64,000 nt of DNA from Candidatus Dietzia intestinipullorum (GTDB taxonomy: Bacteria > Actinomycetota > Actinomycetes > Mycobacteriales > Mycobacteriaceae). Made by a program: the position numbers and the translations under genes. The notes under the pieces were generated by a model that saw only the letters and a program-made list of their open reading frames with translations, did no database searches and was not told the DNA's origin. The stretch spans positions 1 to 64,000 of the forward strand of contig DWWP01000015.1 of assembly GCA_019119635.1 (NCBI GenBank). Reading direction: 5' to 3'. This document shows, one piece after another, positions 46,751-52,104 of this stretch (positions within the stretch are counted from its first letter, which is position 1; every line of letters starts with the position of its first letter).

Positions 46751-47248
46751 ATGGCCAACGACTCGCAGGTCACCTGGTTGACCCAGGAATCTTTCGAGCG
46801 CCTCACGGCGGAGAAGGAGGCGCTGATCGCCAATCGTCCCGCGATCGCGTTCGAGATCAACGAGCGGCGCGAGGAGGGCGACCTCAAGGAGAACGCCGGC
46901 TACCACGCCGCGCGTGAGCAGCAGGGCCAGGAAGAGGCCCGGATCCGGCAGCTCGACGACCTGCTGGCCACGGCCCAGGTCGGCGAGACTCCCACCGAGT
47001 CCGGCGTCGCGCTGGTCGGCTCCGTGGTCCGCGCCTACTACAACGGCAAGCAGGACACCCAGGAGACCTTCCTGCTGGGCACCCGTGGCGAGGGCTCCGG
47101 CAAGGACGATCTGGAGATCTACTCGCCCGACTCGCCGCTGGGCCAGGCCATCCTCGGGGCCAAGGTCGACGAGACCCGCGAGTACACGGCACCCAACGGC
47201 AAGACGGTCTCCGTCACCGTCGTCACCGCGGAGCCGTACCACAGCTGA
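46751..47248 (+). CDS. greA: Transcription elongation factor GreA
   Basis: GreA rescues backtracked RNA polymerase by stimulating transcript cleavage. The 165-aa protein has the N-terminal coiled coil with the acidic tip [19 protein letters not shown], then the FKBP-like C-terminal domain ([38 protein letters not shown]). ATG 46751 gives the standard N-terminus ending in [12 protein letters not shown] hairpin follows the stop. The track start at 46652 lies in the leader. Confidence 0.95.
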
Positions 47249-47260
47249 CCGCAGCGCACA

Positions 47261-47309
47261 CCGGGTCGGCAGTCGGTCCCGCAGATCGCGGGGCCGGCCT
47301 CCGACCCGG
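47261..47309 (+). terminator. Hairpin downstream of greA
   Basis: ccgggtcgg/ccgacccgg form a 9-bp outer stem and cggtcccgc/gcggggccg an inner stem with one wobble pair. It follows greA and precedes the mcrB promoter region; no T-tract. Confidence 0.6.
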
Positions 47310-47378
47310 TGGTACGTTCAGTCACGGATAACGGGCCCCGGCCGGGGCCCGACAGCGCCGGCAACGCAGGAGACGCAC

Positions 47379-49607
47379 GTGTCAGACGGTTCCCACGACA
47401 GGCCCGACGGACCGGCCCCGAAGATCGAATCGGCGGCCGCCCGGGTCCTGGGGCCGGCCCTGCGCACGGGACAGTCGCCGTTCGAGGACGGCCTCTACAC
47501 CTGGACCCCCGAGGTCGCCGAGGAACTGGCCCGCCGCCTCGACGCCGACCCCGCGGAGGAGTCCGGCGACTCGAGCCGGTCGCCGGTCATGCAGGCCCTG
47601 CACGACCAGCTCGAGGGCGCGCCCCGGCCGGTGATCCTGCTGGCCGCCGAGCTCCTCTACGTGCAGCAACTCCCCCTGTCCACGGTGACCGCGCGGCTCA
47701 AGCGTGGCCGGGTCCGCGACGTGCTCTCGTGGATGCCCGACGCGCCGGGGATCCCCGCGGAGCTGGACGCCGCCCTCGGCGAGAAGGGCCCGCTCACCGG
47801 CGGACTGGGGTTCAACGTGCAGATGCGCGAGCACCTGCGGTGGCTCTGCGCCTTCGTCATCCACTGGGCCGAGCTCGACGCCGCCGAGCGCGACGCCGCC
47901 CTCACCGACCCGTGGGAGTTCCAGCGCGCCGCACGGTCGACCCCCGGAGACTGGCGCGCCATCCGCTACAGCCTGCAGTACCTGACCTGGCCCGGGTACT
48001 TCCAGCCGATCGTCAAGCACGACCACAAGACCCGGATCCGCGACGCCTTCGCCGACCTCATCGGCGGCCCCGCCGGGATCGACGAGCTGGACATCGAGCA
48101 GGACCTGCACCGCATCTCCGAGATCCTCTCCGCCCAGGTCGGGCACCCCGTGGACTGGTACCGCGGCTCGGTGGCCACGCAGTGGCAGCGGCACCGCGAT
48201 GACCACTCCCGGCGCGCCTGGCTCGTGCGCCCGGGTCGGGGTGGGGCCGGCCGCTCCGGCCAGTGGCTCACCCAGAACCGCATAGCCCTGCCCGCCTCGC
48301 ACCTGCCCCGCATCCCCGCACACGCGAGCCGCCTCGAGGTCTCGCAGGCCGTCGAACAGGGCTACCCACACCTGGACTACCAGGCGCGCTTCCAGCTCAC
48401 CGCCGAGCTGCACACCTTCCTGTCGCGGATGAACCCGCAGGACGTGGTGGCCACGGTCGCCGACGCCACCCTGCACCTGGGCACCCTCACCGACGACCTG
48501 GGGTACGTGGAGGACGGCGGACAGCAGCTCGAACGGTCGGTGCGCTGGAGCTCCGCGACCCTGACCCTGGACGAGCTGCCCAGCCCGATCTCCGAGCTCA
48601 TCGGCGAGCCGGGCACCGTCGTGGACCTCACCGACGGCCTCGACGCGCTGTTGGCGGTGATGCACCCCGGCCGGCATTCTGCCGAGTCGCAGGTGGCCGA
48701 GGCCCCCGCCGCCGGCACCGTGCCCACCCTGCCCGCGGTCACCGACGACCTCGCCGACGGCCTGCACATGCCCCGCGAGGAGCTGCAGCAGTTCGTCGAC
48801 GTGCTGCAGCAGCGGCAGCAGATCGTGTTCTACGGCCCGCCCGGCACCGGCAAGACGTACCTGGCACAGGAGCTCGCGCGGTTCCTCGCGGGGCCCGACG
48901 ACCCGAGCCGGGTGCAGCTGGTGCAGTTCCACCCCAGCTACGCCTACGAGGACTTCTTCGAGGGCTACCGGCCCACCCTCACCGAGTCCGGGCAGCCGGG
49001 TTTCGCGCTGCAGGCCGGGCCGCTGCGCCGCCAGGCCGCCCGCGCGACGTCGGATTCGGGTCGCGAGCACCCGAGCTTCCTCATCATCGACGAGATGAAC
49101 CGCGCCGACCTCGCGCGCGTGTTCGGCGAGATGTACTTCCTGCTGGAGTACCGCGACCGCACGGTGCTGCCCCAGTACAGCCCGGAGTCGTCGTTCCGGC
49201 TCCCGCGCAACCTGTTCATCATCGGGACCATGAACACGGCCGACCGGTCCATCGCGATGGTCGATGCCGCCATCCGCCGCCGGTTCGCCTTTGTCGAGCT
49301 GCACCCGGACGCCCCGCCGGTGGCGGGCGTGCTGCGGCGCCACCTCGCGGCGGCCGGGGCCGACACAGAGCCCGCAGAGCTGCTCGAGGCGCTCAACTCC
49401 GAGATCGACGACTCCGACCGCGACCTGCGCATCGGGCCGTCGTACTTCATGAAGCCCGAGGCGACCGGGCCCGGCGGGCTCGAGGCGATCTGGCGCTACG
49501 ACCTGCTGCCGTTGCTCGAGGAGCACTACTACGGGCGCATGTCCCGCGCCGAGGTCCACGAGAGGTTCGGCCTGGCCACCCTGCGCCGGAAGATCGGGCG
49601 GGCATGA
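47379..49607 (+). CDS. McrB-like AAA+ GTPase/ATPase of a restriction-like system
   Basis: A 742-aa protein whose C-terminal 290 residues form an AAA+ domain of the McrB type: Walker A FYGPPGTGKTYLAQELA, HPSYAYEDFFEGYRP, Walker B FLIIDEMNRADLARVFGE and sensor motif NLFIIGTMNTADRSIAMVDAAIRRRF. The first 450 residues are a separate region without a recognisable methyl-DNA-binding fold. It may define target specificity. The GTG at 47379 has AGGAGA upstream. The next gene, an McrC-like partner, starts in an ATGA overlap. The pair sits between greA and a conserved SGNH gene, so it is inserted relative to the core order. Confidence 0.85.
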   Translation: MSDGSHDRPDGPAPKIESAAARVLGPALRTGQSPFEDGLYTWTPEVAEELARRLDADPAEESGDSSRSPVMQALHDQLEGAPRPVILLAAELLYVQQLPLSTVTARLKRGRVRDVLSWMPDAPGIPAELDAALGEKGPLTGGLGFNVQMREHLRWLCAFVIHWAELDAAERDAALTDPWEFQRAARSTPGDWRAIRYSLQYLTWPGYFQPIVKHDHKTRIRDAFADLIGGPAGIDELDIEQDLHRISEILSAQVGHPVDWYRGSVATQWQRHRDDHSRRAWLVRPGRGGAGRSGQWLTQNRIALPASHLPRIPAHASRLEVSQAVEQGYPHLDYQARFQLTAELHTFLSRMNPQDVVATVADATLHLGTLTDDLGYVEDGGQQLERSVRWSSATLTLDELPSPISELIGEPGTVVDLTDGLDALLAVMHPGRHSAESQVAEAPAAGTVPTLPAVTDDLADGLHMPREELQQFVDVLQQRQQIVFYGPPGTGKTYLAQELARFLAGPDDPSRVQLVQFHPSYAYEDFFEGYRPTLTESGQPGFALQAGPLRRQAARATSDSGREHPSFLIIDEMNRADLARVFGEMYFLLEYRDRTVLPQYSPESSFRLPRNLFIIGTMNTADRSIAMVDAAIRRRFAFVELHPDAPPVAGVLRRHLAAAGADTEPAELLEALNSEIDDSDRDLRIGPSYFMKPEATGPGGLEAIWRYDLLPLLEEHYYGRMSRAEVHERFGLATLRRKIGRA

Positions 49608-50914
49608 CGACGACCTCGACGGACCCGGCGGTGTCGGAGTCCCTCGAGTTCGACGAATTCGATCGGCGCGGCGGACTCGTCACCCTGAGCTGGGAGGGCG
49701 CCCAGCGACTGTCGCAGACCGGGCTGGTGGAGGTCCTGCCGTCGGGACGCGACACGTGGCGGCTGCTGCCCAACGGCCGCGTCGGGTCCGTCAAGGTCGA
49801 GGGCCTGTCCGTGAGGGTGCTGCCCGCGGCCAGCCTCGGCCTGACGCAGCTGTTCTTCCTGCTCGACCACGCGGCCGACGACCCGTTCCTCGGCTCGGCC
49901 GTGCCCGCGCGGGACGACGACGAGCTGTGGATCTCCGTGGCCGAATCCCTGGCGGCGCTCGCCCATGCCGCCCTCGCCGCCGGGCCCCTGCGCGGCTACC
50001 GCCGGGTCGACGAGGCCCTCACCACGGTGCGTGGGCGGATCCGGCTGGGCGACCAGATCCGCAGGCATCCGGGGATGACGCTCCCCCTGGAGGTCACCTA
50101 CTCGGAGTTCACCCCGGACATCGCCGAGAACCGCATCCTGCGCACGGCCGCGCACCGCCTGCAGTTCCTGCCCGACCTGCCCGACACCACCCGGCGACGC
50201 CTGGCGATGGTGGACGCCCGCCTCGCGGAAGCCACCCTCATCGGCCAGGGCGCCCCGGTCCCCCAGTGGACACCGACGCGGCTCAACGCCCGCTTCCAGG
50301 ACGCTCTCGCGCTCGCGGACCGGATCGTGCGGAGGATCTCCGTCGAGGTCGAGGACGGGCACGCCTCGTCGGCGGCGTTCGTCACCGAGATGCCGTCACT
50401 GTTCGAGCGGTTCGTCGCCGCCGAACTGACGGCCGTCCTCGATGGGCCGGGCAGCCGACTGCTCGCCGATCCCGTCGTCAACCTCGATTCCGGTTCCGAG
50501 GACGACGGCGAGCCCTCCACCGGACGTCACCGCGCGCCCTCCGACGGCGACCACATCCCCGTGCGCACCGGGCTGGTGTACGAGGTCGACGACGAACCCG
50601 TCACGACCTTCGTCGCCACCTACCCCACCGATCGCCGGGCCCGCGCGGCCGACCACTACCGACTGCTCGCCGCCTGCACGGCGCTCGGCGTGGACCGCGC
50701 CTACCTGGTCTATCCCGCCCAACGCCGGGGTGACACCCCGCTGCCGCGGCGGATCGTGCACACCGACATCTCGATCATCGAATACCCCGTCGACCTCTCG
50801 GGCGGGCCCGCCGCGAGCCGCGCGGCTATCGTCGAACTCGCCGGGCAGGCGCGCGATCTCGCCACCGCACCCACCGCCCGGCACCGGAGACAGGGGAGGA
50901 GACACGCTCGATGA
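49604..50914 (+). CDS. McrC-like protein with degenerate nuclease motif
   Basis: A 436-aa McrC-family partner of the upstream AAA+ protein. The N-terminal part (GLVEVLPSGRDTWRLLPNGRVGSVKVEGLSVRVLP in outline) and central part (TTVRGRIRLGDQIRRHPG; YSEFTPDIAENRILRTAAHRL) match the family. Active McrC carries a PD-(D/E)xK site of the form RPDxVxE...DAKY. Here the aligned stretch reads RTGLVYEVDDEPVTTFVATY, so the Asp of PD, the Asp and the Lys are Gly, Val and Thr. The following ADHYRLLAACTALG helix is kept. Cleavage by this subunit is therefore unlikely. Its stop overlaps the next gene. Confidence 0.82.
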   Translation: MTTTSTDPAVSESLEFDEFDRRGGLVTLSWEGAQRLSQTGLVEVLPSGRDTWRLLPNGRVGSVKVEGLSVRVLPAASLGLTQLFFLLDHAADDPFLGSAVPARDDDELWISVAESLAALAHAALAAGPLRGYRRVDEALTTVRGRIRLGDQIRRHPGMTLPLEVTYSEFTPDIAENRILRTAAHRLQFLPDLPDTTRRRLAMVDARLAEATLIGQGAPVPQWTPTRLNARFQDALALADRIVRRISVEVEDGHASSAAFVTEMPSLFERFVAAELTAVLDGPGSRLLADPVVNLDSGSEDDGEPSTGRHRAPSDGDHIPVRTGLVYEVDDEPVTTFVATYPTDRRARAADHYRLLAACTALGVDRAYLVYPAQRRGDTPLPRRIVHTDISIIEYPVDLSGGPAASRAAIVELAGQARDLATAPTARHRRQGRRHAR

Positions 50915-52104
50915 GTCAGCCCGGTGAGCCGGCGAAGCGCATCATCGTCAACCTCGCGTTGGTTGCGGCGGGGACCGCCGGCGCCTCCCGCGGGGCCTAC
51001 GAACTGCTGACCCAGCAGGCCCGGATCGCCCGCAGTGTGATCCCCAAGCCCACGTCGCGCCCCTACGACGGCGACGGCCTCTACCGGCCCGGCGCCGTGC
51101 GCGCGGCACCGTGGCGCCCGGGGATGGAGTGCGACGTCCACATGATGATCTTCGGCGATTCCCTGGCCGCCGGCCTGGGCGCCGACTCCCCCGACGAGCT
51201 GCCCGGCGTGCTGCTGGCCCGTGGCCTCGCCGAGGAGTCCGGACTGAACGTGCGGCTGAGCATCAAGGCGATCGTCGGCGCCACCTCCAAGGGGCTGGCC
51301 GGGCAGATCGAGGCCATGCAGATCGCGCGTGGTCAGCCCGATATCTCCGTGATCCTCATCGGCGGCAACGACATCACCTCCCGCAACGCGATCGGCCCCT
51401 CGGCACGGCGTGTGGGCGAGGCGGTGGCGGCGCTGCGCCGCGAGGGGTCCCTGGTCGTGGTGGGCACGTGCCCGGACCTGGGGATCATCAAACCCGTCCC
51501 CCAGCCGCTGCGGTCGGTGATGGCAGCGCTCAGCCGCCGACTCGCGGCCGCGCAGACCGTCCGGGTCCGCAGGGCGGGCGGCGTGCCCGTGTCGCTGGCC
51601 GAGACGCTGTCGCCCGAGTTCCACAAGCGCGGCGAGAGCCTGTTCTCCCCCGACCGCTTCCACCCCAACTCCGACGGGTACGAGCTCGCCGCCGGCCTGC
51701 TCCTGCCGGCCGTGTGTACGACGCTGGGCGTCTGGGACGAGCCGCAGGAGCCGGAAGCCCCCGGCCCGGAGGCTCAGGAAGCGGAGGCGGAAGCGCGGGA
51801 GGCTCAGGAGGCGGAAGCGCGGGAGTCGGAGGGCTCCGGCTCCGACGTCGTTCCCGACGACGAGGACTCGACGCCTGACGAGCCGCGCGGCACCGTCGTG
51901 ATGCGCCTCACGCGCCGTCTCACCGAGTTCGTCCGCGCCCACGAGGACGCGGACGGAACCCCGGAGGAGTCCGCCCTGCATAATGAGGATGTGGACGGCG
52001 ACCCCGAGAGCACCGGGGACGCCCGCGAGGCGGCGGACACGCTCCGCCGCCGGAGCCGGATCCTGCGCAGGGACCCCTCACCGCGGGACCCCGATGACAG
52101 CTAG
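50911..52104 (+). CDS. SGNH/GDSL hydrolase
   Basis: Esterase-fold enzyme of 397 aa with block I FGDSLAAGLGADS (catalytic Ser), block III GGNDI, and the Asp/His dyad in DRFHPNSDGYELAAGLLLPAV. An N-terminal hydrophobic segment (IIVNLALVAAGTAGASRGAYELL) may anchor it in the membrane. The last 140 residues are an acidic linker with E-A-Q-E-A-E-A repeats encoded by repeated GC-rich DNA. It corresponds in position to the Rv1075c esterase next to a fadA-type thiolase. ATG overlaps the McrC stop (ATGA), an unexpected coupling with a defence gene. Substrate unknown. Confidence 0.87.
   Translation: MSQPGEPAKRIIVNLALVAAGTAGASRGAYELLTQQARIARSVIPKPTSRPYDGDGLYRPGAVRAAPWRPGMECDVHMMIFGDSLAAGLGADSPDELPGVLLARGLAEESGLNVRLSIKAIVGATSKGLAGQIEAMQIARGQPDISVILIGGNDITSRNAIGPSARRVGEAVAALRREGSLVVVGTCPDLGIIKPVPQPLRSVMAALSRRLAAAQTVRVRRAGGVPVSLAETLSPEFHKRGESLFSPDRFHPNSDGYELAAGLLLPAVCTTLGVWDEPQEPEAPGPEAQEAEAEAREAQEAEARESEGSGSDVVPDDEDSTPDEPRGTVVMRLTRRLTEFVRAHEDADGTPEESALHNEDVDGDPESTGDAREAADTLRRRSRILRRDPSPRDPDDS

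Follow-up and report, generated by a model that had tools for sequence, protein, structure and literature searches.

Canonical McrBC systems, as known from E. coli and T. gammatolerans, are encoded by two-gene operons. The catalytic trio of E. coli McrC consists of D244, D257, and K259 (PMC6624300), and Arg263 of T. gammatolerans McrC reorients the signature loop of McrB and stimulates GTP hydrolysis, a stimulation that is abolished by an alanine at this position (PMC7680126). Departures from this scheme have also been described. A census of coiled-coil nuclease tandems (CoCoNuT) reported inactive McrC domains that belong to the NxD branch and have HEPN or other nucleases in their vicinity (PMC11090510). 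PcdA of Staphylococcus is an McrB-family protein that has taken up a role in cell division; it has no McrC, and its nucleotide motifs are degraded (PMC10602043). Here we analyzed a stretch of 64,000 nucleotides from Candidatus Dietzia intestinipullorum (contig DWWP01000015.1, positions 1 to 64,000; the window), in which an initial annotation had noticed an McrBC-like pair. The pair shares with the canonical systems the AAA+ GTPase with an MNxxDRS signature, the McrC finger with its GTPase-activating (GAP) arginine or lysine, the two-gene operon, and the McrC fold, whereas its McrC lacks all three PD-(D/E)xK residues. The genes overlap by 4 bp (ATGA):

47379..49607, forward strand: mcrB, encoding an McrB-family AAA+ GTPase of 742 residues, with a GTG start; open, intact reading frame.
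49604..50914, forward strand: mcrC, encoding an McrC-family protein of 436 residues with a dead PD-(D/E)xK domain; open, intact reading frame.

The catalytic positions were mapped by profile alignment onto solved McrC chains and examined in a 36-row McrC alignment, which comprised 18 Dietzia orthologues and 18 other sequences, with L055, the second McrBC copy of a Dietzia genome, among the latter. The following features define the nuclease part, the first three exchanged residues resting on both alignments and the fourth on the 36-row alignment:

50558..50848, forward strand: inactivated PD-(D/E)xK domain, McrC residues 319-415, delimited by alignment, structural model, and the ratio of the proportions of nonsynonymous and synonymous differences (pN/pS).
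50570..50572, forward strand: G323, where the catalytic Asp is expected (E. coli D244).
50612..50614, forward strand: V337, where the catalytic Asp is expected (E. coli D257).
50618..50620, forward strand: T339, where the catalytic Lys is expected (E. coli K259).
50660..50662, forward strand: R353, where the conserved Gln of the Q..Y motif is expected.

The exchanges of Asp to Gly, Asp to Val, and Lys to Thr that had been read from the sequence were thus exact. At position 323, all 18 Dietzia rows had G and all 18 others D. Position 337 was V, A, or L in the 18 Dietzia rows in contrast to D in 18/18 others, and position 339 was T or A in contrast to K (18/18 others). The Q..Y motif was gone as well, with R instead of Q at position 353 and A instead of Y at position 357 in the 18 Dietzia rows, the motif residues being present in 18/18 others in both cases. 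The catalytic residues by which a restriction-type McrC is recognized were therefore absent in 18/18 aligned Dietzia rows, and no D..DxK set was conserved elsewhere in the nuclease domain of these rows. As far as checked, an intact PD-(D/E)xK site at another place in the protein, which would have contradicted the initial annotation, was not found. The helix Glu E268 was missing in one Dietzia species, and H351, R353, R375, R382, and R383 are new residues that are invariant in Dietzia. Further relatives from the order and the class retained the nuclease motif with few exceptions, the clear ones in the class sample being L092 and L162, which belong to a Flexivirga-type lineage. L190 reads DLKNK.

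Outside the nuclease site, the protein is recognizable as McrC. The Pfam family McrBC (PF10117) matched residues 59-279 only (124 bits, E 6.5e-36), the nuclease part lying outside the match. The best fold match of the McrC model was T. gammatolerans McrC (6ut7_G, E 4.0e-17, template modeling scores 0.62/0.65), and according to this model the McrC fold is retained in the Dietzia protein. The GTPase-stimulating Arg or Lys of the McrC finger is present as R226 in 36/36 rows:

49919..50368, forward strand: McrC finger (GTPase-activating) region, residues 106-255, placed by profile alignment and model; pN/pS in Dietzia 0.146.
50279..50281, forward strand: R226, the counterpart of T. gammatolerans McrC Arg263 by profile alignment.
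50474..50557, forward strand: low-confidence, species-variable linker, McrC residues 291-318, seen in model and alignment; fast-evolving, pN/pS 0.476.

The length of the linker is very variable among Dietzia. Nearly all Dietzia carry a GRHxAP-like motif in it, some in two copies, whereas relatives with an intact McrC are without this motif.

The altered McrC is fixed in the genus. Among the 23 Dietzia genomes, sampled one per species, an mcrC orthologue was found in 23/23 without a stop within any mcrC match, and the pair was present in all of them, which rules out an isolated mutant or a sequencing error. The closest McrC relatives that retain the catalytic residues are only about 28-36% identical, and none of them is a within-genus orthologue. 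Median pairwise ratios of nonsynonymous to synonymous substitution rates (dN/dS; Nei-Gojobori, deep branch G022 excluded) were 0.09 for mcrB, 0.15 for mcrC, 0.155 for greA, and 0.20 for the downstream SGNH gene, and McrB was 88-92% identical across the genus, G022 again excluded, in comparison to 85-90% for GreA. A pseudogene is ruled out by the dN/dS. Within mcrC, the finger and the dead nuclease domain had a pN/pS of 0.146 and 0.148, respectively, compared to 0.476 for the linker, and the C-terminal tail also evolves fast. As the dead domain has the same pN/pS as the finger, it is held by selection and not drifting. The view that the nuclease site was lost without a frameshift and that the gene is selected in this state is hence borne out genus-wide. 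In one Dietzia bin (G013, L068 5630-7903), mcrB is open throughout and aligns only piecewise (606/742 residues), perhaps due to compensating frameshifts or assembly errors. The Dietzia genome G011 contains an additional McrBC at another locus (L055, G011:C71) with an intact DAKYK site.

The partner protein has a complete motor domain. The AAA+ part of McrB was 36% identical to E. coli McrB (chain 6hz4_A, Foldseek E 3.5e-15), a phmmer match had an E-value of 4.7e-44, and the NCBIfam McrB model, which has an equivalog cut-off of 637, gave a score of 144 bits. The Walker A, Walker B, and MNxxDRS motifs that characterize McrB were invariant in all 29 aligned McrB rows:

48834..48857, forward strand: Walker A motif GPPGTGKT, McrB residues 486-493, invariant columns.
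49083..49103, forward strand: Walker B motif and adjoining residues IIDEMNR, residues 569-575; D571, E572, N574, and R575 invariant.
49230..49250, forward strand: McrB signature MNTADRS of the NxxD type, residues 618-624; N619 and D622 invariant.
49275..49283, forward strand: arginine finger and sensor II arginines RRR, residues 633-635, invariant columns.

The full motif set that had been noticed at the outset is therefore real, but the label "ATPase" did not hold, since MNTADRS corresponds to the MNxxDRS signature of McrB GTPases and "GTPase" is the better label. The N-terminal 450 residues, which had been left unassigned, turned out not to be an orphan region, as they form two domains that are shared with McrB proteins partnered by an intact McrC:

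47379..48203, forward strand: all-helical N-terminal domain, McrB residues 1-275, based on the model, the alignment, and an order-wide search with the domain profile.
48207..48698, forward strand: alpha/beta domain, McrB residues 277-440, based on the model and a match to the N-terminal part of PADLOC PDC-S02 (E 1.5e-9).

The alpha/beta domain is the most likely candidate for the DNA reader of McrB, as it matches this candidate defence family. Its motif reads DGGQQLERSV in Dietzia and DGRSNLRRxV in the relatives. Searches of PDB and Pfam with both N-terminal domains gave chance-level or repeat-driven matches only and no match to a known reader. A HEPN-type nuclease in the McrB N-terminus was considered and rejected, as inspection by eye revealed no conserved RxxxxH among the invariant columns.

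The gene order mca-greA-mcrB-mcrC-SGNH-thiolase was kept across Dietzia wherever contigs were long enough, with the following direct neighbors:

46751..47248, forward strand: greA, the upstream neighbor, outside the system, assigned by Pfam GreA_GreB_N and GreA_GreB and by synteny.
50911..52104, forward strand: SGNH/GDSL hydrolase gene, an older neighbor that is dispensable to the mcrBC pair, assigned by family match and comparative gene content.

In a tree built from McrC without its nuclease part, Dietzia formed a single clade (100/100) with a long stem of 0.74 changes per column that was nested among intact McrCs, which indicates that the intact site is ancestral and was lost on the Dietzia stem. 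In nine relatives outside Dietzia, no mcrBC match was found on the fetched stretch. In five of these, a single stretch carried both greA and the SGNH gene, separated by about 4-8 kb without an mcrBC match, and one such interval contained NlpC/P60-like and cystathionine-synthase-like genes, named from sequence without a family search. The pair thus entered an old chromosomal neighborhood. One relative with an intact McrC adjoins an Eco57I-type methylase and a phage integrase, which is a restriction-modification context.

The coupling of the pair to the SGNH hydrolase gene, to which the initial annotation had pointed, is real as a 4-bp overlap at 50911, but a functional link was not upheld. Of 61 genomes sampled from the whole order, 56 have the SGNH gene. 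Two genomes of Dietzia (G002 and G016) are left with only its last ~50 codons, and both keep mcrBC. The hydrolase is a neighbor and not a component of the pair, and a role as obligate partner was rejected. A coupling to GreA was rejected as well, as the adjacency is not absolute: an extra gene separates greA from mcrB in two genomes (G022 and G002). This insert is an acyltransferase-3-like gene with an SGNH-like end (L058 11431-13287 and L054 2344-4257), and G002 is also one of the genomes that miss the downstream SGNH gene. The conserved McrC C-terminus GRRHAR (window 50894-50914) coincides with the ribosome-binding site AGGAGA of the SGNH gene, and this overlap is probably the reason for its conservation.

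Upstream of mcrB, an alignment of 18 upstream regions revealed a short element that is kept in most Dietzia in the form CCGGTGGTAGGTT:

47306..47318, forward strand: CCGGTGGTACGTT, element upstream of mcrB with a -10-like TAnnnT box inside.

This element suggests that mcrB may have its own promoter; a scan with the sigma-70 consensus gave no match. An RNA hairpin between greA and mcrB (window 47240-47385) was predicted to be very stable (z -4.7), with no signal of similar strength in seven other Dietzia (z +0.7 to -1.7).

When compared to the described departures from canonical McrBC, the Dietzia pair shares with CoCoNuT an McrC homologue that keeps a dead PD-(D/E)xK fold. However, CoCoNuT McrB proteins have the NxD motif and coiled coils, whereas Dietzia McrB has NxxD (NTAD), and CoCoNuT loci encode HEPN or other nucleases, whereas the Dietzia pair is flanked by greA and the SGNH hydrolase gene without a nuclease neighbor. 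With PcdA it shares a lineage-restricted McrB-family protein and a change from restriction to a cell-biological role, the latter being proposed for Dietzia. PcdA has a degraded Walker A motif, EVE domains, and no McrC, in contrast to the intact Walker motifs and the adjacent mcrC in Dietzia. Neither description covers the Dietzia arrangement, which also departs from canonical McrBC in that the McrB N-terminal domains are unrelated to known readers by sequence search and in that the pair represents core, syntenic genes rather than patchy defence genes. We found no report of Dietzia McrBC, or of inactive McrC in the NxxD branch, in a search of the main texts of open-access papers.

The same McrC site has been eroded independently in a second lineage. 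The Flexivirga McrC (L092 6848-8047) has GNVAY where DxK is expected, and orthologues of this type with at least 47% identity occurred in 15/80 genomes of another actinobacterial family. They form a graded series, which leads from intact GDAKY (L201-L204) to GDASY (L198-L200), GDVSY or GDVVY (L193-L196), and GNVAY (L092, the same gene as L192), and further to the clearly dead LQARH (L197), LGTCY (L162), and IGTRY (L205). The RLN motif was retained throughout, all GTPase motifs were intact in the McrB genes that were fetched, and near pairs had a dN/dS of 0.07-0.19. This lineage thus shares with Dietzia the eroded catalytic Lys and Asp, the intact GTPase, and the RLN motif. It differs by its separate position in the McrC tree, where L092 is a long branch, by another McrB N-terminus, and by a graded erosion that includes intact members. 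A DUF445 gene lies in the neighborhood of 8/14 of the loci examined. The more distant pair L209 and L210 (G999 and G1044), excluded from this count, has INATY where DxK is expected (D to N, K to T).

We propose, with a probability of roughly 0.62, that the Dietzia pair is an McrBC motor that was domesticated, runs on GTP without cleaving, and serves a core function of the cell. On the Dietzia stem, a restriction-type McrBC would have settled between greA and the SGNH gene and lost its cutting site, and it would have been kept as a core machine. The McrB N-terminal domains may bind a nucleic-acid site, DNA being the presumable client, and McrB may assemble into a GTP-hydrolysing hexamer, with McrC inserting its finger and R226 to accelerate GTP hydrolysis. 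The pseudo-nuclease domain would no longer cut but could still join complexes or dock a partner, and the output would be a movement on, or remodeling of, nucleoprotein without cleavage that serves a normal cell function. The initial annotation had suggested a non-cleaving defence or stress system, of which the loss of the catalytic residues stands, but defence or stress is unproved. We prefer a cellular role, because the pair is universal (23/23 species) at a fixed locus, and because McrB evolves as slowly as GreA. Some points weigh against our proposal. A genus-wide defence role would give much the same signature. Close to the C-terminal end of the nuclease domain, Dietzia has four invariant residues, H386, D388, E393, and D397, the last of which is conserved family-wide, and a relocated metal site is therefore conceivable. 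Finally, the AlphaFold model of McrC is of modest confidence (predicted local distance difference test score 77.6) and was built on 36 sequences.

If the pair were instead a non-cleaving defence system, modified or foreign DNA would still be recognized and then blocked by binding, translocation, or transcription arrest, or a response would be triggered. The descent from restriction systems, the match of the McrB middle domain to PDC-S02, and the intact GTPase and GAP residues would all fit, but we regard this as unlikely, as the Dietzia genes are universal, confined to a single locus, and slowly evolving, unlike their patchy relatives outside the genus (28/278 family genomes and 55/398 order genomes), and as no methylase or other defence gene adjoins the pair. 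A nuclease acting in trans, recruited by the pseudo-nuclease domain, is considerably less probable. It would be analogous to CoCoNuT, where HEPN or other nucleases accompany the inactive McrC (PMC11090510), and the Dietzia-specific linker motif together with H351, R353, R375, R382, and R383 could form a docking face; however, no nuclease gene lies beside the pair between greA and the SGNH hydrolase gene, and Dietzia McrB has the NxxD and not the NxD motif of CoCoNuT. That the domain still cuts by means of relocated metal-binding residues would be in line with the retained fold and the invariant H386, D388, and E393, but without a conserved D..DxK, with E268 lost in one species, and with Q..Y gone, a cryptic nuclease is very improbable. 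Strongly disfavored, and the least credible of these explanations, is a decaying relic of a dead restriction system that is carried along by its position. Such a relic would account for the lost nuclease site and the fast-evolving linker and C-terminal tail, but not for the dN/dS of 0.09 (mcrB) and 0.15 (mcrC), the absence of stops in the mcrC matches of 23 genomes, the invariant GTPase residues, and a dead domain that is constrained like the finger.

The domesticated, non-cleaving motor that we prefer for Dietzia may belong to a wider pattern. Tentatively, and with somewhat less than even odds, we suggest that entire McrBC motors with the ordinary NxxD signature were domesticated at least twice in Actinobacteria, namely, in Dietzia and in Flexivirga with related genera, by losing cleavage and keeping McrC as GTPase activator of a core, non-defence, GTP-driven AAA+ nucleoprotein motor. 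The Flexivirga-type lineage with its intermediate stages of erosion makes the order of events traceable. McrC is both a nuclease and a GTPase activator, and Dietzia separates the two naturally, with the activator kept and the nuclease erased genus-wide, which makes the idea of a non-cutting McrBC motor directly testable. In contrast to PcdA, which lost McrC and much of the nucleotide site (PMC10602043), the Dietzia pair would cleanly exemplify how a restriction system became a core gene set with McrC retained.

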